Shown here one piece after another: positions 17,053-28,035 of a stretch of 51,022 nucleotides of DNA; within the stretch, counting starts at the first letter, position 1; each line of letters opens with the position of its first letter. The notes beneath the pieces were generated by a model. That model was not told the origin of the DNA and did no database searches. It saw only the letters and a list, made by a program, of their open reading frames with translations. A program made the translations under genes and the position numbers. The stretch comes from Prasinococcaceae sp. CCMP 1430. Taxonomy: Eukaryota; Prasinodermophyta; Palmophyllophyceae; Prasinococcales; Prasinococcaceae. The DNA is taken from positions 159,469-210,490 of the forward strand of contig RQSC01000025.1 in assembly GCA_013416795.1 (NCBI GenBank), given 5' to 3'.

Positions 17053-18093
17053 TCACACGAACGCGATCCACTCCTCGCGATGGTCGATCCTCGGCTCAGA
17101 GCGTGCCGCGTCGTGGCCGACGGGGAAGTGCGCCCACGCGCTCATGCAGCACGTCCGCCGTGCATCCGACAGGCCGGCTTGCAAGTCGATGCCGAAACCG
17201 AATCTGCCAGCGCTGCCGTCCCTCGCCGCGGGCGCGCACGCCCAGCACGGCGCGGACGGGATGAGCTGGTCACCTCCGAGCACGCATAGGCCGCGGCTCC
17301 TCGCTTTCAAGAGCTTTGGTCGGGGATATCCATAGATGATGGGGCGCAGGGTACCCTCGCCGCAGCGTGGGCAACGCTGAGCCAGCTCGCGCTCGAAGCA
17401 CTCGCGGAAGGCGGCGAGCGCGAGCGCGCGAGGCCCCTCTGTCCTCGGGCTCGTACCCTCGCTGGCCGGAACCGCGCCATTCGCGTGCACAGGTCCGGCC
17501 GGATGCAGCTCCGGCGACGCACCGAATCGCCGCGCGAAGTGGGCCAGCCACACGGCGTCAGACCGAGCAGCATCGCGCCACGCGCGGCACACCTCGGCGG
17601 CGAGGAGCGCGTCCTCGAAGTGCTCCATCGATGCCACGATGGCGCTCACGCACGCCGCCGGGAGCGAACCAACATCAATTGACTCTGGCGGCGCCGATGC
17701 CGCTGCGGCGTCAGCCCCAACGCCGTAGCTCCCACCACCCGCGCCGCCGCCGCCGTCCGTCGGCCTCGACGCTCGGCGCGGCATCCAGTGCGGCACGCCT
17801 CCCGCGTCCGCGCACCGCTCGACTTCGTCGCGCAGGTACGTGTTGACGCCCCACGCCACGTTGCGCTGCGCGGAGGTGGGCGCGCCGATGTACCTGCTGA
17901 GCGCCTGGGCGTCAGCGCGCGGCCCCGCTCGCCGCAAGCCCGCGGCGAGCGCCTCGGCGAGCAGCTCCTGCGCGGCCTCCGATGCAGGATCGCGGCTGTG
18001 CATGACGGTGCACGCCGCGACCCCGTCGCGCCACCCCCTGGCCCGCCCGTCGCCCGCGCCCGCCACGCGCCCCAACCGCGCTGTGTGTGGCAT
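17053..18093 (-). CDS. F-box protein with C-terminal zinc-ribbon-like domain
   Basis: This is a predicted substrate adaptor of an SCF ubiquitin ligase. It is one exon of 346 residues from the ATG at 18093; an ATG 42 codons upstream is less likely. The N-terminal 150 residues are Ala/Gly-rich. An F-box-like helix set follows: LPAACVSAIVASMEHFEDALLAAEVCRAWRDAARSD in two parts. The C-terminus has RCPRCGEGTLRPIIYGYP, then CVLGGDQL and a second CxxC (CWAC). That CPxCG...PIIYGYP plus LGG plus CxxC pattern matches small bacterial zinc-ribbon proteins as I remember them. The fusion is unusual, and the ribbon may recognise the substrate. It converges on squalene synthase with 207 nt between stops. Confidence 0.65.
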   Translation of the reverse strand: MPHTARLGRVAGAGDGRARGWRDGVAACTVMHSRDPASEAAQELLAEALAAGLRRAGPRADAQALSRYIGAPTSAQRNVAWGVNTYLRDEVERCADAGGVPHWMPRRASRPTDGGGGAGGGSYGVGADAAAASAPPESIDVGSLPAACVSAIVASMEHFEDALLAAEVCRAWRDAARSDAVWLAHFARRFGASPELHPAGPVHANGAVPASEGTSPRTEGPRALALAAFRECFERELAQRCPRCGEGTLRPIIYGYPRPKLLKARSRGLCVLGGDQLIPSAPCWACAPAARDGSAGRFGFGIDLQAGLSDARRTCCMSAWAHFPVGHDAARSEPRIDHREEWIAFV

Positions 18094-18188
18094 GCCTCCA
18101 CCGTGAAGGGGGGAGGTCCGCGCGGGTGTTAGGGTAGAACCCAAATACCCCACAGGGTTGTGCAATATGTAGCGTAAAGAGAAAAGAG

Positions 18189-18196
18189 TAAACCCT
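18189..18196 (-). promoter_or_regulatory. AGGGTTTA motif upstream of the F-box gene
   Basis: The minus strand reads TAGGGTTTACTC about 96 nt before the ATG, inside an AT-richer patch (18120-18200) that is distinctive in this GC-rich DNA. The position and orientation match those at SWP73 and RAD51. Confidence 0.45.
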
Positions 18197-18331
18197 ATTG
18201 AACGCTGCGGCCAGTTCATTCGCGCATGCCGAGGCCAGAGGCACGACGGGGAGAGGAGTGTGAGGGTGGGGTGGGTAGAGGGTTGGCGCCGCCGCGCGGG
18301 GCGCCGGTGGGGGGGGGGGACGCCCGCGTGC

Positions 18332-18790
18332 TCACAGAGTGGCGAGCCCCTCCTCGTCGCGGAAGTTGGTGAAGCGGTTGGCCATCTGCCGCCGCCGGCG
18401 CTCTCGCGAGCGCCGCATGCACGCGTACGCGACGTACACGGACGCGCCGATGGCGAGCAGGACTGCGGCCACGAGCGCCGAGTACAGCAGCACCGAGCTG
18501 TCCGTGTCTGTGGAGGCGTCCTTCGGGTCCGACGGTGGGGGCGGCGATGGAGCGGGCGGCGCAGACGGTGTGGAATTTGCAGGCGGTGAGGGCGTCTCGG
18601 GCGGTGAGGGTGGCGTCGAAGGTGAAGGAGGTGTTAGGGGAGGAGGCGGCTGCGCTGGCGGCGCCGTCGTGTTGGGGGCTGGCGCGGGCGCGGCCGCCGC
18701 GCCCGCTCCGCTGCCCGCCACCCCACCTCGCCGGCGCTGCGCGGCGGTGGCGTCGGCATCGGAGGCCGAGGCGGCGGCGGCGTGCGGTGG
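18332..18790 (-). CDS. 3' exon of a proline-rich single-pass membrane protein
   Basis: The minus frame gives a Pro/Ser-rich stretch resembling algal hydroxyproline-rich wall proteins. A clear membrane segment follows (SSVLLYSALVAAVLLAIGAS and on), then a strongly basic RRSRERRRR and a tail ending DEEGLATL. Topology fits a wall- or surface-anchored protein with a short cytoplasmic end. No ATG is available nearby in this frame: the only upstream one is at 19120, opposite the SET domain, so upstream exons are needed. The upper boundary given here is where composition changes, not a mapped splice site. The region is antisense to the 5' part of the SET gene, and only one of the two readings may be real here. 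Confidence 0.45.
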   Translation of the reverse strand, partial: PPHAAAASASDADATAAQRRRGGVAGSGAGAAAAPAPAPNTTAPPAQPPPPLTPPSPSTPPSPPETPSPPANSTPSAPPAPSPPPPSDPKDASTDTDSSVLLYSALVAAVLLAIGASVYVAYACMRRSRERRRRQMANRFTNFRDEEGLATL

Positions 18791-20216
18791 TGGTGATACC
18801 GCCGAGGAGCTCGCCCTGTGGCTGCACCGCGACGGCGCGGAGGGCGCCGCGGGCGAGGCGCAGCGCGTGGCGATGAGCGAGTGTGCACCCGCGACCGGCG
18901 CGCGCGGGCTTGTGACGACCGTCGCGGCACGGAGCGGCGATGTTCTACTGCGTGTGCCGCTGGCAATGTGCCTGACTGACCTGCAGCCGTGTGATTCGTG
19001 CCCCGACGGCGCGCCGTGGTCGGTGCGCGTGGCGGCGCGGCTGCTCGAGGAGCGCGCCAAGGGCGACGCTAGCGCGTACGCGCCGTTCATCGCGTCGCTG
19101 CCGTGGGGCAGGGTCACCACGCCGCTGCAGATGGGCTGGGACGATACGCAGGCGATCCAGTGGGCGCACGTGCGGCAGGAGCTTTACGAGCTGGATTGGC
19201 TCTTGAATCACTGGTACGAGGAGTATCGGCAGAGAAATGACGCCGCAGAGGATGGCAAGGCGACGCCAGCGACGCCCGTGCCCGCGCTGCTGGGCGACTT
19301 CGAGGCAGCGCTCACGCTGGTGCACTCGCGCACGTTCCTGGCGTGCGTTGAGGAGGGCGGCAGCAATGCGTCGCCGTGGTTCGCGCGCGTGCTCGTCCCT
19401 TTGGGCGACATGATAAACCACGACGGCGTGGCGCACAACACCGCGTGGACGTACGAGGATGACGGCCTCGCGGGCAAGGCGATGGTGTTCAGGGCGACGA
19501 GGGACCTGCTCGCGGGGGAGGAAATACTCGCAGACTACGGTCACCAGTGTATCGACGACCTCTTCACGTACTATGGCTTTGTGCCGCGCGGCGCGCCAGC
19601 CGACGCCGCGCCTCTCTTCGGCGCGCCCATTGAGGCGCTCGAGTGGTGGCTGTTTGCGCGCGGGCAGGAGGAGAACGAGGCGGCGCTCGAGCGCGCGAAC
19701 GCGCTGCTGGCGTGGATGGAGGGGGGCGGCCACGATGCGGCCGCGGACGTCGCTCGCAGCGGCCAGGACACCGCCGCGGGGGGCGGTAAGGACGCGACGA
19801 AGGGGCTCAGAGTGCACATCGGTGGCAGCGTCGACCAGCAGCTGCTCGAGGCCTTCGTGGCTCTCGAGCTCGCTTGCGATGCCGGGCCGGGCGAGGCCGC
19901 GTCGGAGGCCGAGGTCAGCAAAGCGCTGCTAGGTGAGGCGCATGCGATGGTGAAGCGCAGGTGCAGGGAGCTCCTGCAGGCCGCGCCCTCTTCGCTTCGG
20001 GAAGACCTCGCGGCGCTCGGCGAAGGGCCGCAGGGCGTCAACTCGGCGTGCGCGTTTGCGGACGAGGCCGAGCTGCCTGTCGAGGCGGGGGCCACCAAGC
20101 TGCCGCAGGAGGCGCGCGAGGCCCTGTCTGCCGCGGAGGAGAGTGTCGCCCGGCTCAACGCGGCGAAGAAGATCGTACTGTGCGAGGTGCTCGCCAACGC
20201 CGAGATCGCACTCTAG
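18450..20216 (+). CDS. SET-domain protein methyltransferase, Rubisco LSMT/SETD-like
   Basis: This is a lysine (or histidine) methyltransferase of the split-SET class related to plastid Rubisco large-subunit methyltransferase. The domain begins near 18793 with ELALWLHRDGAE, followed by GARGLVTTVAARSGDVLLRV. The cofactor-binding core has PLGDMINHD and ILADYGHQCIDDLFTYYGFV. A helical C-terminal domain typical of LSMT substrate binding follows. The stop codon is at 20216. The start is uncertain: the ATG at 18450 opens an Ala/Ser-rich leader that might be a plastid transit peptide, but that leader is antisense to a convincing membrane-protein exon. An upstream exon may supply the true start. It converges on the ATPase-NicO gene with 165 nt between stops. 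Confidence 0.78.
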   Translation: MASRTAATSAEYSSTELSVSVEASFGSDGGGGDGAGGADGVEFAGGEGVSGGEGGVEGEGGVRGGGGCAGGAVVLGAGAGAAAAPAPLPATPPRRRCAAVASASEAEAAAACGGGDTAEELALWLHRDGAEGAAGEAQRVAMSECAPATGARGLVTTVAARSGDVLLRVPLAMCLTDLQPCDSCPDGAPWSVRVAARLLEERAKGDASAYAPFIASLPWGRVTTPLQMGWDDTQAIQWAHVRQELYELDWLLNHWYEEYRQRNDAAEDGKATPATPVPALLGDFEAALTLVHSRTFLACVEEGGSNASPWFARVLVPLGDMINHDGVAHNTAWTYEDDGLAGKAMVFRATRDLLAGEEILADYGHQCIDDLFTYYGFVPRGAPADAAPLFGAPIEALEWWLFARGQEENEAALERANALLAWMEGGGHDAAADVARSGQDTAAGGGKDATKGLRVHIGGSVDQQLLEAFVALELACDAGPGEAASEAEVSKALLGEAHAMVKRRCRELLQAAPSSLREDLAALGEGPQGVNSACAFADEAELPVEAGATKLPQEAREALSAAEESVARLNAAKKIVLCEVLANAEIAL

Positions 20217-20381: not shown

Positions 20382-21480
20382 TCAAATTATGTCGATCCCC
20401 AACACTGCGCCGAGGCCGAGCAGAAGCCCGACCACCAACGAGATAGAGGACGACAGGTAGGCGATGCGATCGACGCCGCGCTGGCCGTTGGTCTTGGCGA
20501 CGATGTCGACACTCTTGGCGATGAAGGCTGTGTACGTGCCCATCGCGAAGATGGTGCCTAGGAGGAAGGCACCCAAGAAGCAGATGGCGTTGAGCGTTGG
20601 CATTGCGAAAGCCGGCATGATGACCACCAGCGCGTCCGGCTGGAGCCCGTGCAGCACGCCCGTGCTATACACCGCAAAAAGCTTGCGCCAACCCTTCTTG
20701 TCGCCCACCTCGATCTCATCGTCGTGGTCGTGGTCGTGGTGGTGCCCTCCCGACATGCGCTCCCATAGCCCCGTGGCGCCGATGATTACGAGTGTCGCAG
20801 CGACGGCCAGCGTGCCGTACTGGCTGAGCATCGCCAGGTCGAAGTGCATGTGCGAGCGCAGCAGGATGAAGGCGCAGCCGAAGATAATCTGGCCAGTGTC
20901 ATGACCAAGCCCCCACAGCGCGCCCAGCAGGAAGCTCTGAGCGCGTCCTACGCCGACGCTCAGCGGCATGAGCGCGGCCAAGTGGTCCGGTCCGGTGAGC
21001 GTGTGGAGCCCGCCAGCCAGAAGACCAGAGACCAGGCTCACGCTCGCACTCGCAATTGCAGCCGTGCCCACTGCCTCCCAGCCTAGCACGGCCGTGAACA
21101 TCAGCGACGCAAGAGACAGGATCGCGCCGATAGCCAGCTTGTTCGCGACGAGCCACTGCTTGGCCTCAGCCTTGATCATGGCGAACGACGACCGGGGCAG
21201 AAGCCGGAGCGAGTTGATGGCCACCATGAGCGTGGCGCCCTCGTGCATGAGCACCGCTCCCCACAGCGGCACGAAGCCACTCAGCGCTGGCAAGGCGGCA
21301 CCAGCGATGGACACAGCCGCCAGTACCAGATTCTGCTTCAGGATGGCCTTCATGCGGCTTGACAGCTGCACGAGATTGGGCAGAACGGAGGCGTCCGAGC
21401 GCAACAGGACGATGTCCGCCGCGGCCGCAGACGCCTCCGATGGCGTGTGCGACACGGCAATGCCCACGTCTGCTGCGGCT

Positions 21481-21512
<32 letters not shown>

Positions 21513-23867
21513 CATCACACAGACCCCCTTGGCGCGCGCCTCCTCGACGCGCGCAAGCTTGTCCTCAGGCAGCAGCCCAGCGTGCACGTGCGACTCGGGG
21601 ATTCCGACGGTCGCGCCCACGGCCACGGCGTTCTCTCGCCTATCACCCGTCACCATCGCCACGTCGCAGCTCTCGCCGCCCCACGCGGCCTCCTTGAGTT
21701 TTGAAACGGCCTCGCGGCTCGACGCGCGCACCGTGTCCGCGAAGTACATCATCGTGACGTCCTCAATCACGTCTGTCCCTGCCACATCCTGCTGCCCCCC
21801 GCTGCTGCTGCTGCCGCCCACGCTCGCACGCATCGCAATGGTCACGTGTGTGGAGTCCACCTGTGCTGCCAGCCGACGGATGCCCGCCGCGTTGTCGGCG
21901 TTCACGCACTTCGCCGCCACGTGGTCGAGGGAGCCAAGCACCACGCTTATCTCCTCCGAGGGCTCGCCCTCTCCGACCAGCACAGCCGTTCCCTCCACGC
22001 CGCGCCCGTGCACCTGCTTGAAAGAGCCAAGCTGCACACGCGGGAGCCGTGTGCCGCTCCTCCTGCTGGCCGCCTGCGCGCTCGCATGGCAGTGCACGAC
22101 CGCTCGCGCGATGGGGTGGCTCGCGGCGTGCTCGAACGCTTCTGCGACGGCCAGCGCGCGTCTCTCGGCGCTGGTCGACGGCTGGAAGAGCTCCCTTTTC
22201 AGCAACATGTCGGCATCGACGCCCGCCACTGCGCCCGCGCTCCTCTCCCGCGCGAGCGCGTCCTCCAGCCTCTCGACGCCGATGCACACCAGCTGTCCGG
22301 TGGTGAGGGTGCCGGTTTTGTCCATGAGGAAAGTTTTGGCGTCGGCCAGCGCCTCCAGCGTGCGCGCATTGTGGACGAGCACGCCATTGCGCGCACACCT
22401 GCCCAGTGCTACGACGTACACCAAGGGCGCCATGAACAGCGCACAGGGCGCCGCGGCCGTCAGGAAGCCGAACGCCCTGTAAATGGCCCCGCTGCCGGCG
22501 TCCGCGCCCACGAGCGGCACACCAAGCACGAGCGGCGCCGCCGTGATGAAGAGCGCCGTTGCGCCTAGCACGGCCTTCGAGTAGACGTCGCCGAAGCGTT
22601 GGATGAGCGTCTGCAGCCGCGGCGCGCGGCGCTGCGCCTTGTCCGTGAGGCGCGCGATGCGCGCGGGCATGCTGTCCTCGCTCGGCCGCACGGCTTGCAG
22701 CACCAGCACACCATCCAAGTTCTGCGCCCCGGCTGCCACCTCATCGCCAGCCGCCGCCTGGATTGGCAGCTCCTCGCCGGTCAGGTGGGCCACCGACACC
22801 ATCGCAGTGCCCCGCACGACGGTCGCGTCCAGCGGCACCTGTTGGCCTGCCCGCACAAGCAGGAGCTCGCCAACGAGCACCTCCTCCGCGCGTCGCAGCC
22901 TGGCGGTGCTCACGTCCACGCCGAGCAGCTCTGCTTCGCCTTCCGCGTCGCTGTCGTCTGAGTACGCGGAGGCCGAGCCCGGCGCGTCCGCCGCAGCACC
23001 GGCGCCGCTCTCGTCGAGGGCGCTGCGCGGCAGCACCCACGCCTCGGTGGGCACCGAGTCCCACAGCGCCTTCACGTTGGCCTGCGCCCTGTCGGTGAGC
23101 TCGTCCTCCACCAGGTGCGCCGCGCCGAAGAGCACCAGCAGGAGCGCGCCCTCGAGCGCACAGCCGAGCAGCACCGTGCCGAACACCGCCAGGCTTGTGA
23201 GGACGTAGATGTTGACGTTGCCCGCGGCGACCTCGTTGGCCGTGTCCCATGCGGTGGACGCGCCCGCGAGCATGAAGACGGCGACGGTTCCCGCGGTCTG
23301 GATGCCCGCGCACACGCTCGCCAGCAGCGCATGCTCGGCGGCGCTCCGCGCGGCGACGAACGCGCACATCGCCGCGGCGGCCAGGAACGCCGCCGAGACC
23401 CCCGTGGCCCACGGCCGGCGCAGCTCGTCGACGACGTCCTCCAGGAGCTCTTTCGGCGTGCGCGGCACCAGGTCGAGGTCGTTCGCGACCTCCTCGACGG
23501 CCACTGCCGCGCTCGTGCGCCCCGAGCAGCATCCGCCGCCGGGCGCGCCGGGGCCCGCGAGCGCCTTAGGCCCTCCCAGCGATGGCCGGAACGCCCTGCG
23601 GCCTGCGGCGCCCGCGCCCGCCCCCTCGCGCGCCACGGCGCAGCGCCGCNNNNNNNNNNNNNNNNNNNNNNNNNNNNNGGCGTCGCCTCCGGGCGTTCGA
23701 GGCGGGGCCTGCCCCGCCGCGCGCGCGCTGCGCTGCGCGCGCGCCCTCTGGCGGGAACCCCGTCGCGGCCGCAACGCACCCCGAACTCGAACCGCGTCCG
23801 CGGGCCGGGTGCCCAGGCACGTCAAAATGCACGCGAGAACCGCGGAGGGCGCCCACGTGGCCCACAT
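20382..23867 (-). CDS. P1B-type heavy-metal ATPase (HMA1-like) fused to a NicO/NiCoT-type transporter
   Basis: This is one uninterrupted frame of about 1161 residues (29 unknown bases included). Residues 1-25 form a signal peptide ending in ADA, and an Arg/Ala-rich stretch follows, suggesting a complex-plastid leader. Residues about 200-890 are a P1B-ATPase. The metal-site helix carries APCAL in place of CPC, as in HMA1 and P1B-4 pumps. Phosphorylation motif DKTGTLT has Asp near 516, and SHPIARAV and GDGINDAPAL (about 786) are also present. From about residue 920 the protein continues into a NicO-family transporter. It has GGLHTLTGPDHLAALMPLS, a second signature GALWGLGHDTGQIIFG, a His/Asp-rich loop (GGHHHDHDHDD) and GVLHGLQPDALV, like plant chloroplast 'high-affinity nickel transport' proteins. 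Substrates are likely Ni, Co, Zn or Cu ions. The N gap is in the leader only. Confidence 0.88.
23650..23678. other. Assembly gap, 29 N
   Basis: A run of unknown bases lies in the putative leader of the ATPase gene. Its true length is unknown, so the link between signal peptide and mature part depends on the gap size being right. Confidence 0.95.
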
Positions 23868-24691
23868 ATCGGCGACGGTGCACAGTGCACAAAACTGCGC
23901 AGACCTCCTGCGTAGATGGCTTTTGCAGACCGCCGGCCGGCCCAAACCCGCAGCAGCGCCCGGCCGGGATTTATTTTTTTTGGTTGTGTGTCTGGCTGGC
24001 TCGGACGACGAGCGGGTCCGGACCGGGGGAGAGGGGGGGGGTCGCGAGAGGGGGCGCGGTGCGGTGCGGTGCGGCGGGTCGGGTGGGTGGGTCGTTGGGT
24101 GGGTTTGTTCGTGGGTTTGTTCGTGGCGTTTGCCGACCGAAGGTTCCCTGTTCCCTGTTGATTGGTCGATGTTCGGCCAGCCAGCCAGCACGGGGCACAG
24201 CCAGCCAGGGCCGCGCGCGCGCTCGCTCGCCGACCGGCCGACCGAGCGACCGAGATCGCATGGAAAACGCCCATCGGGCCTGCCATCCACCGCGTTGGCG
24301 AGATGGGAGGGTAAGAACACTCGTGAAATTGAAAGGGCAGATAATTAACCCTGATATTTTATACCCAAATCGTGTTTGGGTCGGTGCCTCCCACCCAGCC
24401 AGGTGGGAGGTGCCGACCGACCGAGGTGGGAGCCCCGTCCGCGCAAGACTCTGCGAGTCGGGCAAAGCACGCCCGCGCCAACCAGCCGATTGGAACCAAT
24501 CGCCGGTGCTGTGTGTGGCAAGAGCCAGCCGGTCGGACGCTGCTGGCGGGCGAATTGGCGCGCGGCGGTCGCGCTCGCCTCCCTGGCCGGCATCCCGCGC
24601 TCGGTCGGCGGCCGCCCGCCGCGGAGGGAGGGAGGGAGGGAGGGAGGGAGGGTGGCCCCATCCCCATCCGCGGCGGGGTGCGCTCGCGCGN
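23868..24691. other. Spacer with tetranucleotide repeats and a single-N join
   Basis: The spacer holds GGGTGGGTCGTTGGGTGGG and TTTGTTCGTGG repeats (24080-24130), CCAGCCAGC blocks (24176, 24203), an AT-rich patch (24322-24372) with TTAACCCT, and a GGGAGGGA run (24626-24650). A single N at 24691 is flanked by a perfect 9-base inverted repeat (24680-24688 and 24692-24700), which looks like a contig join at a hairpin. No gene was recognised. Confidence 0.6.
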
Positions 24692-25323
24692 GCGAGCGCA
24701 GCGTCGAGTTCCCGTCCCTGCGCGAGCTGCGCATGGCAATCCCGAAGGCATGCTTCCAGCCGAGCACGGCGACGTCGCTCGCGTACGCCGCGTGCGACTT
24801 GTCGCTCCTGGCGGCGTGCGCGCTCGTTGCACGGCCGTTTGCGCTGGCGCACCCGGCGCTGCTGCCCTTGTACTGGGCGGTGAGCGGCTTGGTCATGTGG
24901 ATGGTGTTCGTCATCGGGCACGACTGCGGCCACGGCTCGTTCTCGCGGAACCCCACGCTGAACGCGGTGGTGGGCCACCTGTGCCACACGCCACTCATGG
25001 TGCCCTTCTGGCCGTGGGCGTACAGTCACAAGATGCACCATAAGTACCACAACCACCGTACGAGGGATATGAGCCACAAGTGGTGGACACGGGAGGAGTA
25101 CGCCGACGTGCACCCGCTCGTTCGCGCTCTGGCGCTGGACACGCCGCTCGGGATCGTGACGGCCTTTCCGGGGTACCTGCTGCTTGAGGGGAAGCGGTGT
25201 GGCACGGACGGGAGCCACTTCTGGCCGGGAAGTAGGCTGTTTGACAGGGCTCCAAAGGAACGCAAGAAGTGCGCCGTGAGCTCGGCCCTGTGCGTGGCGT
25301 TCCTGGTGGGCACTGCCTGGGCG
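24692..25323 (+). pseudogene. Truncated omega-3/delta-12-type fatty acid desaturase fragment
   Basis: This encodes the N-terminal half of a membrane fatty acid desaturase. LRELRMAIPKACFQPS and a first membrane hairpin lead to the first His box HDCGHGSFS. A second hairpin and the second box HKMHHKYHNH follow, then the conserved GSHFWPGSRLF and ERKK before the third membrane segment. HDCGHGSF favours the omega-3 group. The third His box (HxxHH) needed to complete the di-iron site is absent: the frame runs straight into the helicase that follows, with no N between. The 5' end abuts the single N at 24691. Either an assembly chimera or a genuine truncation explains this; as drawn it could not be a working desaturase. 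Confidence 0.75.
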
Positions 25324-25545
25324 CCGACGGTGCCGGCCGAGCCGGTGCACGTCGCCTACGAGCGCTCCGACGGCACGCCCCTCGGCAAGAAACAGCTGGG
25401 CGCCGCCGCGTGCAAGTGGCTCGCCGCCGGGGCCGCGAGCGCCGCGCGCGTCATCATCGCGGACTTCGAGCAGCGGGCGACCGCCCAGCGGCGCGCCGAC
25501 GACGCCGACGACGACGAGGGCGCGCGAACGAGCGCGCGCGCGGGC

Positions 25546-28035
25546 ATGGTTGCGCCCGCGGGCGAGTCCGTGTACGCGCTCCTGCAGCGCTACCTCGAGG
25601 GCGAGCGCGTGCCCGCCGGAGCCGAGGATGCGTGTGCCAGGGCGCGCGCCAGCCTGCCGACGCTCACCGAGGCGCTGAACACGGCGCTGCTGAGCGCCGT
25701 TCGCGACCGCGCGGCGGAGCGCGGCGACGAAGATGGGCGCGGCGCGGACGGCGAGGCCACGCTGCAGGCCATCCGCAAGGCGATGCGCTCGTCGTCCGAG
25801 CACCGCACATTCGCCACCGGCATCGCGGAGGAGCGCAAGGTCATCGAGGCGCGCAGGCTCGTGGCCGAGGCCGTGGCTGCGCGGTGCGACGAGCTCGTCG
25901 AGCTCAACTCGCTGGAGCGCGGCGCGCAGGAAGCCGAGCTCGAACTCGACCTGGCCGCGACGGTCTGCCGCGTGGACCGGCGCGACTTCGCGGGCGAGCC
26001 GACGCTCGTGCGCGCCGCCTCGGTGCGCAAGTCGGAGGGCCGTTGCGTGCTGACGCTCTGCTTCCCCGAGGGCACCTTCAGCGATGGCACGGAGGACACA
26101 GCTGACGCGAGCGTGCTCGAGGGGGCGAGCGCGGTCAGGCCGGTGCTGCGCAACGGGTCGAGCATCCGCCTGCGCGTGCTTGGCGAGTTCGAGGACGTGG
26201 CGGCTCGCAACGCCGGCGTGCTGCGCGGCGAGGCCGCCATGGCGGCCGCGGAGGGAAAGTTGGTGCTGTCTGGCCGTGCGACGCGGGCCACGTCGGATCT
26301 TGTGGACGTGACGCTTGACGAGGATTCGAGCGCCCCCGCCGCTGCCCTGGGCGGGGAGGAGGCGCTGTTTTCGACGGGCTTCGCGATGTTTGTGGGCCCG
26401 GACGTGCGCACGTTCGAGCGCAACGCAGAGTACATTCAGACCCTCAAGGGGTTCTCCAAGGCCAAGCGCCTGCGCCAGCACCACGCCCGTGACGTTGTGC
26501 TCGCGGCCTTCGGCGAGGTCGGATCGCTGCCGGCGCCTGCCGGCGCGACCGGATCCGCGGAGGCGGGAAGCGACGGTGTCTCTGCGGCCGTCGAGTCTCG
26601 CGCGACGGAGGCCATCAAGAAGGCCGTCGGTGCCACGCAGCTCAACCCCGAGCAGTCGCTCGCGCTCGAGTCCGCTCTGGACCCAAACAGGCCCGTCACG
26701 GTCATCCAGGGCCCGCCGGGCACTGGCAAGTCGCAGGTGCTCGAGGCCGTCGTGCGCGCGGCTGTAGACAGGGGCCAACGCGTGCTGGTATGCGCACCGT
26801 CGAACGCGGCCGTCGACAACATGGTGGAGAGGCTCGCGCGAGCGCCCGCGGCGCAGGCGACGGCTGGCATCATGGACATCGTGCGCAGCGGGAACCCCGA
26901 GAGGGTGACCGCCGCTGCGCAGTCGTGCTTGCTTGCGGCGCGCGCCGTCGAGGCGGCGGAGGTCCCTCGGAGGGCCAAGCTCGCGCAGCTGGCGGAGATT
27001 CGCAGGCTGCTGGAGGCGAAGCGCTGGGAGAAGAGCGAGCTCATGGACCTCACCACGCGACAGCGCAAGCTGCGAAGGCAGGTCAAGGCGCTCGCGCGCG
27101 ACACTGCCAGGCGCCTGGCGTCCAACGCGGATGTGGTCTGCTGCACGTGCACGGGGCTGGGCGAGGACGCGGTCATCTCCGCCGCGCCATTCGACCTTGT
27201 CGTGCTCGACGAGGCCGCGCAGGCCACCGAGCCAAGCTCGTGGGGGCCGCTGCTCGCCGGCAAGCGGGCTGTCCTCGCTGGGGACGTACACCAGCTAGGC
27301 CCCACCGTTATCAGCCCGGACGCCGGTGAGCGCGGGCTCAGCACAACGCTGATGGACCGGCTTTCGTCGGCGTACGGAGGCGCTCTGACCGTGACCCTGA
27401 AGGAGCAGTACCGCATGCACAGTGCTATCAGCCAGTGGGCGGCGGACGCGACATACGGCGGTGAGCTGAGGGCGGCGGAAGGGGTGGCACAGTGGCTGCT
27501 GGCCGACCTGCCGGGCGTGCAAGCAACCGCTGCGACGCAGAGCCCCATCGCGCTCATTGACACCACCGGACAGGTCGGTGCAGAGGAGCGCCACGCGGAT
27601 GGTGGAGGCTCGTTGTACAACCTAGGCGAGGCGTTTGCCGTTGAGACGCACGTTCGTGATCTGCTGGCGGCTGGCGTGACGCCCGCGTCCATTGCAGTGG
27701 TCTCGCCCTACGCTGCACAGGTGGCGCTGCTGAAGAATGCCCTCTCGGAACTCGAAGTCGAGGTCGCCACCGTCGACGGATGGCAGGGGCGTGAAGCCGA
27801 CGCCGTCGTGCTGTCGATGGTGCGCTCCAACGAGTACCATACGGTGGGCTTTCTGGCGGACGAGCGCCGATTGAACGTGGCCGCCACGCGCGCGCGCATG
27901 CACCTCGCGATCGTGTGCGACGTGAGCACGGTGGGAGAGGACCCGTTCATCGCGGGGCTGCTGAGGGCCTGTCGGCTCTCGGGCGTGCAGATGCGCGCGA
28001 CGCTGACCGCGGGCGATCCCGTGGACGCGGCATGA
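25546..28035 (+). CDS. UPF1/IGHMBP2-like superfamily 1 helicase
   Basis: This is an SF1B 5'-3' RNA/DNA helicase. From the ATG at 25546 it has 829 residues. All helicase motifs are present: Q-motif region LNPEQSLALESAL, Walker A GPPGTGKS near residue 389, Ia CAPSNAAVDN, motif II VLDEAAQATEPSS, III GDVHQLGPTV, IV region LKEQYRMH, V VATVDGWQGREADAVVLS and VI NVAATRAR. The N-terminal half has the beta-barrel and helical regions of IGHMBP2/SMUBP2-like proteins. The open frame extends upstream without a stop into the desaturase fragment. Residues coded by 25324-25545 are not desaturase-like and might belong to the helicase, so the true start is unsettled. It converges on the secreted orphan gene. 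Confidence 0.85.
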   Translation: MVAPAGESVYALLQRYLEGERVPAGAEDACARARASLPTLTEALNTALLSAVRDRAAERGDEDGRGADGEATLQAIRKAMRSSSEHRTFATGIAEERKVIEARRLVAEAVAARCDELVELNSLERGAQEAELELDLAATVCRVDRRDFAGEPTLVRAASVRKSEGRCVLTLCFPEGTFSDGTEDTADASVLEGASAVRPVLRNGSSIRLRVLGEFEDVAARNAGVLRGEAAMAAAEGKLVLSGRATRATSDLVDVTLDEDSSAPAAALGGEEALFSTGFAMFVGPDVRTFERNAEYIQTLKGFSKAKRLRQHHARDVVLAAFGEVGSLPAPAGATGSAEAGSDGVSAAVESRATEAIKKAVGATQLNPEQSLALESALDPNRPVTVIQGPPGTGKSQVLEAVVRAAVDRGQRVLVCAPSNAAVDNMVERLARAPAAQATAGIMDIVRSGNPERVTAAAQSCLLAARAVEAAEVPRRAKLAQLAEIRRLLEAKRWEKSELMDLTTRQRKLRRQVKALARDTARRLASNADVVCCTCTGLGEDAVISAAPFDLVVLDEAAQATEPSSWGPLLAGKRAVLAGDVHQLGPTVISPDAGERGLSTTLMDRLSSAYGGALTVTLKEQYRMHSAISQWAADATYGGELRAAEGVAQWLLADLPGVQATAATQSPIALIDTTGQVGAEERHADGGGSLYNLGEAFAVETHVRDLLAAGVTPASIAVVSPYAAQVALLKNALSELEVEVATVDGWQGREADAVVLSMVRSNEYHTVGFLADERRLNVAATRARMHLAIVCDVSTVGEDPFIAGLLRACRLSGVQMRATLTAGDPVDAA

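Follow-up and report, generated by a model that had tools for sequence, protein, structure and literature searches.

An HMA1-like P1B-4 metal ATPase and a chloroplast NiCo/CGF-type membrane domain fused in a single chain in several prasinophytes

We analyzed a 51,022-nucleotide stretch of DNA from the alga Prasinococcaceae sp. CCMP 1430 (contig RQSC01000025.1, positions 159,469 to 210,490; hereafter the window). On its minus strand, positions 20382–23867 form a single open frame that encodes a P1B-4 (HMA1-like) metal ATPase followed by a chloroplast NiCo/CGF-type membrane domain. The original prediction, made from the letters of the window, had placed a single-chain pump-carrier fusion at exactly these coordinates without giving the strand, and the fusion was borne out by a junction that runs on uninterrupted in dozens of database proteins. 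To our knowledge, no carrier-type protein has been described in one chain with a P-type pump. Consistent with what had been said at the outset, no account of a pump-carrier fusion was found in the open-access literature searched, a scope outside which most subscription papers lie. Both families are known and their joint architecture is new, and the APC motif of the prasinophyte pumps is itself already published. We tentatively propose, at somewhat less than an even chance, that the protein is a single-chain divalent-metal transporter of several prasinophytes, in which the carrier half gathers metal and hands it to the pump.

Pump and carrier in one open frame

The enclosing stop-to-stop frame spans 20382–24344 (1320 codons). 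Translation from the ATG at 23867 gives 1161 amino acids (aa) followed by TGA, and the part read contains no intron. The N-terminal leader is interrupted by an assembly gap of 29 Ns at 23650–23678 (10 unknown residues), which is confined to it, so that the start codon is provisional and the transit peptide uncertain. In 300 single-base shuffles of the region, the longest open stretch averaged 242 aa and never exceeded 470 aa, as against 1320 in the real sequence. The G+C content at third codon positions stayed at 0.81–0.95 from one end of the frame to the other and did not shift at the junction. P0002, the nearest protein in the databases, showed 7 differences over 1040 aa, one of them its own start residue, and its junction was continuous, as was that of the more distant P0003 (71% to P0002).

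The P1B-type ATPase core occupies aa 222–889 (21201–23204), preceded by more membrane helices that start at about aa 150. It matched the heavy-metal P-type ATPase model TIGR01525 above its cut-off (E 1.4e-122) as well as PF00122 and PF00702, carried the DKTGTLT phosphorylation motif (aa 516–522; 22302–22322) and the GDGIND hinge motif (aa 787–792; 21492–21509), and grouped with plant and algal HMA1 in a tree; the assignment as an HMA1-like ATPase was therefore upheld. P1B-4 pumps are recognized by an SPC or APC motif in the helix of the metal site together with HEGxT (PMC3922081), and the window protein has APC at aa 473–475 (22443–22451) and HEGAT in the last ATPase helix at aa 875–879 (21231–21245). 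The canonical SPC form, present in nearly all unfused HMA1 proteins seen, is absent from it. The protein shares its ATPase core and HEGxT with Arabidopsis HMA1 (At4g37270), a P1B-4 pump of the chloroplast envelope, and falls together with HMA1 proteins of plants and algae in one clade. Among bacteria, a Chlamydiia pump matched the HMA1 alignment most closely. The best Protein Data Bank (PDB) sequence match of the window protein was 7qbz, which we take to be the bacterial P1B-4 pump sCoaT. In sCoaT, which has the same SPC/HEGxT-type site, the Ser belongs to the SPC motif of the metal site, and no carrier domain is named in the available part of that report (PMC8880997); in the fusion this Ser is Ala. 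Its replacement suggests an altered metal preference.

The membrane domain at the C-terminus covers aa 935–1161 (20385–21065), as delimited by its sequence relatives, an alignment and a structure model. Its motifs are HTLTGPDHL from aa 955 (20979–21005), GLGHDTGQ from aa 986 (20889–20912), the His/Asp-rich loop HHHDHDHD at aa 1042–1049 (20721–20744) and GLQPDAL at aa 1074–1080 (20628–20648); like those of the ATPase half, they lie where they had been predicted. HxLxGPDHLAAL, GxGHxxGQ and GLQPDA are common to the domain and its relatives in the alignment. Residues H955, D961 and H962 of the first motif and H989 of the second were identical in all 80 ungapped rows of an 81-row alignment reaching bacteria, and their position and chemistry make them candidate metal ligands. 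A search with the domain alone returned 530 relatives. Among the best 120 of these, named land-plant proteins began at E 8.1e-43 with 37–44% identity over 91–99% of the domain, and the lower ranks were bacterial PF13386 proteins, some of them named TauE/SafE or RcnA. No Pfam or NCBIfam model matched the C-terminal 230 residues at cut-off (DUF4134, which came nearest in Pfam with E 0.002, stayed below it), PF03824 (NicO) did not match the domain, and PF13386 (UreH-like/DsbD_2) left it unmatched at E 10 although it matches the relative P0065. By these comparisons, the domain's kin are the plant NiCo/CGF (CGF2) and UreH-like (PF13386) proteins, not Pfam NicO/NiCoT. The predicted “full NicO/NiCoT domain” thus stood as a NiCo-type chloroplast partner with the expected signatures, and fell as a member of Pfam NicO/NiCoT, a name that had rested on motifs.

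With this placement, the Ni/Co substrate originally attached to the domain is no longer implied; the plant relative NiCo (At2g16800) is discussed for iron (PMC4780311, PMC7214486). The same reports put it at the inner envelope, rather than among the thylakoid-type proteins where the prediction had it, and describe an interaction with PIC1 in yeast two-hybrid assays, although an exclusive role with PIC1 has been questioned (PMC7214486). In Chlamydomonas, NicO is induced at low iron (PMC5948301), and Arabidopsis cgf1 cgf2 mutants have damaged chloroplasts (PMC7168881). NiCo and CGF1-CGF2 (Arabidopsis At2g16800 and At4g35080) are chloroplast proteins with the same HxxxxxDH, GHxxGQ and GLQPD motifs as the carrier half; in plants they stand alone, and no listed land-plant form has at least four His in the loop, unlike most fused proteins.

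Between the two halves, models place a single extra hydrophobic helix at aa 910–932 (21072–21140), with low confidence. A hydrophobic segment also precedes the domain in 18 of 25 standalone relatives examined, the positive ones being streptophytes as far as they are named and most streptophyte forms having it; five core-chlorophyte standalone relatives fell short. All 16 fused proteins checked scored for such a segment, and in three of them the best segment lies far upstream and may be the last helix of the pump. Because the segment is shared with most standalone relatives, a whole NiCo-type protein seems to have been joined onto the pump. The model of P0002, built from 77 rows (predicted local distance difference test score, pLDDT, 84; predicted template modeling score 0.69), fits a reading as eight membrane helices of the ATPase, a single linker helix (P0002 789–811) and a carrier of six helices. 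In a separate model of the carrier domain (pLDDT 84), two groups of three long helices were seen, the first long helix of each group being followed by a short one. Helix counting would put the His loop, located behind the third helix of the carrier, on the membrane side that also bears the ATP-binding domains.

Spread and history of the fusion

We used residues 930–1161 as a query against proteins of about 640–2030 aa and scored the 7998 candidates sharing most words. Of 57 matches to the C-terminal domain, 54 also contained APC, DKTGT and GDGIND, the kind of domain co-occurrence by which the original prediction had proposed to be checked. The three remaining matches came from Chara (one protein) and Sphagnum (two, bearing other Pfam domains). 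Since 54 of the 57 long matches also have the ATPase motifs, the fusion is confirmed as real and not an accident of assembly. Fused proteins were found in Cymbomonas tetramitiformis (P0044), Pyramimonas parkeae (P0180) and Chloropicon primus (P0192), and the fusion is therefore not confined to one genome; most of the others are environmental sequences, and lineage labels beyond the named ones are inferred. Separate transcripts for the two domains, or a stop erased by a sequencing error, had been named as outcomes that would speak against the prediction. For the family both fail: proteins derived from transcripts of other algae cross the junction, namely P0022 (MMETSP) and P0180 (MMETSP0058), which have both halves, and P0085 (MMETSP, among the short proteins), whose sequence opens at the ATPase motif GDGIND and continues past HEGxT into the carrier.

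An HMA1 search contributed 93 further proteins from among its best 120; together with these and the window protein the set came to 151, in which 73 had both parts, 75 were ATPases in which no carrier was found and 3 were not ATPases. P0260, first listed as fused on a 12-bit match in its leader, was counted as unfused; P0256 and P0179 are cut short within the carrier. The land-plant and named core-chlorophyte HMA1 proteins in the sample were unfused and plant NiCo/CGF proteins stand alone, in keeping with the claim that the two are separate proteins in plants. APC in the HMA1 proteins of Ostreococcus, Micromonas and Coccomyxa was reported in 2014 (Hanikenne and Baurain, PMC3922081). The Ostreococcus and Micromonas proteins share APC and HEGxT with the fusion, and the available part of that paper mentions APC and not the added carrier; these are presumably the same genes as the fusion.

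Several traits go with the fusion. APC was present in 73/73 fused proteins, SPC in 72/75 ATPases lacking the carrier; the three APC exceptions were P0199, P0211 (Tetraselmis sp. GSL018) and P0210. The last of these breaks off shortly behind GDGIND; it was taken as unfused in this count and as fused in the topology and trait-pair tests. An N-terminal His patch (at least six His in some 25-residue N-terminal window, in proteins with at least 60 aa of N-terminus) occurred in 56 of 59 unfused SPC HMA1 proteins and 2 of 22 fused ones; the window protein itself has at most one His per 25 aa there, in a leader with 10 unknown residues. Fused forms differ from unfused HMA1 in having APC for SPC, in the patch being mostly gone and in the added carrier domain of about 230 residues. 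The motif patterns were fitted by 68 fused and 55 standalone sequences, and a His-rich carrier loop (at least four His) was seen in 56 of the fused and 7 of those listed as standalone. Five of these seven fall inside fused clades, and three of the five open with the fused linker (P0062, P0070 and, by a near-identical opening, P0063). The sample is skewed, its unfused members being mostly land plants and its fused members mostly one group of near relatives. Many rows are closely related, and the counts are therefore not independent; the trait shift is a pattern from one or two evolutionary events and not statistical proof.

A quick ATPase tree (65 rows, with nine chosen bacterial rows as outgroup) united core chlorophytes and all fused proteins in a clade with 100% support in the Shimodaira-Hasegawa-like approximate likelihood ratio test, and the streptophyte HMA1 proteins came next, outside it. 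The fused rows were paraphyletic in the free tree; a tree holding them, with the truncated P0210, in one clade was 1.6 log-likelihood units better (p 0.54 in the approximately unbiased (AU) test). For the carrier, a quick tree of 75 rows (9 of 84 sequences, including the fused P0056, were excluded for lacking the strict motif pattern) grouped the streptophyte and core-chlorophyte standalone forms with 95% support. One clade of the fused rows and eight presumed fragments was not rejected (p-AU 0.38), nor was a grouping of core chlorophytes with the fused rows (p-AU 0.13). The eight fragments are “standalone” rows counted as fused because the free tree placed them there: P0062, P0063 (by its opening), P0070, P0081 and P0085 begin with fused-protein sequence, and P0060, P0061 and P0064 were counted on tree placement alone. 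The simplest reading is a single fusion event on the chlorophyte side, and later splitting in core chlorophytes is compatible with these tests. Prasinoderma belongs to a phylum reported to have diverged before the Chlorophyta-Streptophyta split; if the window is from Prasinoderma, its position among prasinophytes would mean either gene transfer or a more ancient fusion followed by losses.

A possible metal relay and its alternatives

Conservation of a fusion is commonly taken as a sign that its two parts cooperate where they are separate proteins; here it suggests that pump and carrier act on the same metal step. As the original prediction did, we infer a hand-over. The site formed by H955, D961, H962 and H989, helped by the His-rich loop where present, would collect a divalent metal; the metal would then pass from the carrier to the pump entry, taking the place of the N-terminal His patch of unfused HMA1; and ATP hydrolysis would move it over the membrane, away from the ATP side. 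Transport away from that side is the general rule for P-type pumps. The fused protein is probably located in the chloroplast envelope, and Fe(II) or Zn(II) as the metal is a low-confidence guess. Studies are in conflict over divalent-metal export by HMA1 (PMC5948301), and the metal role of NiCo/CGF is still unsettled (PMC4780311, PMC7214486). By gene-fusion logic, HMA1 and NiCo/CGF, both plant chloroplast proteins of unsettled function, would be predicted to work in one pathway in land plants, and the fusion offers a testable link between them. The wider proposition, a one-chain relay in several prasinophyte lineages from a NiCo/CGF carrier to an APC-site HMA1 pump and a common pathway in land plants too, is more speculative, and we rate it as possible though clearly short of an even chance. 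Lineages carrying the fusion include marine phytoplankton, and the fusion therefore bears on the handling of scarce trace metals.

Several observations weigh against the hand-over. In P0211 and P0199, its sister row, APC is present and HEGST is followed by a hydrophilic tail instead of a carrier, so that APC and fusion can part; Coccomyxa may be another such case, since a standalone NiCo-type protein (P0111) was seen there. In 12 of the 68 fused proteins the loop has fewer than four His, and it is thus not essential to the fusion. The trait links come down to one independent pair in the ATPase tree on starred branches and two on all branches. Chloroplast targeting is a prediction, and the leader is interrupted by Ns. 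The linker helix was modeled at pLDDT 56–68 only and domain packing is not fixed by the model, the carrier domain had no PDB relative by sequence and no significant one by Foldseek, and a conserved bacterial neighborhood of both families was looked for and not found.

The main rival to the hand-over is that the tether merely delivers pump and carrier to the same membrane in equal numbers, each moving metal alone, perhaps in opposite directions, so as to hold the metal at a constant level. The linker that joins the carrier to the final ATPase helix varies in length and sequence, both halves keep their motifs and the plant relatives are separate proteins, all of which fits this reading, while the loss of the His patch and gain of the His loop point to shared metal capture, though on very few events; we regard it as a real if rather doubtful possibility. 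It is unlikely that the carrier has ceased to transport and now senses or buffers metal to regulate the pump. A role of plant NiCo in Fe sensing or release has been suggested in print, and the His-rich loop would lie on the ATP side; against this, the four candidate ligands are fully kept, which is more than a sensor needs.

Cleavage into pump and carrier after translation of the whole and import into the plastid appears highly improbable to us: the linker does vary more than the sequence on either side (at aa 896–945 it is 54% identical to P0003, compared with 68% and 76% for the two flanks), and yet a hydrophobic helix lies within it. Least probable of all, and close to negligible, are two adjacent genes or a frame created by sequence error. 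The region is GC-rich, with other long frames overlapping on the opposite strand, and the N gap is near the start; that gap, however, is away from the junction, the same junction recurs in dozens of proteins including transcript-derived ones, and chance frames fall far below the observed length. The hand-over remains the reading that we prefer.

Genome context and neighboring genes

A P1B search of the alga's own 24.5-Mb genome (12 of 28 candidates scored) gave five full-length P1B genes, the fusion and four of CPC type, one of the latter in two exons. Lower-scoring ATPase matches were taken as other P-type ATPases, and the two such loci viewed (L007 and L008) lacked an xPC motif. In the same genome no standalone NiCo/CGF-type gene was found. 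Nor did PF12263, presumably the PIC1/TIC21 family, have a match there, an absence that could come from gaps in the draft or from divergence of the gene; in plants, that family is the reported partner of NiCo/CGF. Contig C78 (L010 1420–2482) holds a second NicO/UreH-like carrier, more bacterial-looking, with an apparent intron and a long His-rich loop of its own.

Two pairings outside the algae were also noted. In Novosphingobium profundi (L081 4566–8061), about 125 bp separate a P1B-4 pump gene with SPC and HEGST from a His-rich NicO gene (PF03824) downstream of it, a pairing not seen at the eight other SPC loci of the same order. In Sphagnum tenellum, P0053 and P0054 combine a NiCo-type domain with PF00790 and PF03127 (which we take to be the VHS and GAT domains) in one protein, and may be gene-model joins.

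Around the fusion, the plus strand at 18279–20213 encodes a SET-domain protein convergent with the 3' end of the fusion gene. One plus-strand frame at 24355–28032 contains a partial PF00487 fatty-acid desaturase (profile 7–89 of 253) and then AAA_11 and AAA_12 helicase domains, and probably represents either two neighbors or one gene that lacks a segment. On the minus strand, 17056–18633 gave a weak F-box-like match under the Pfam cut-off.

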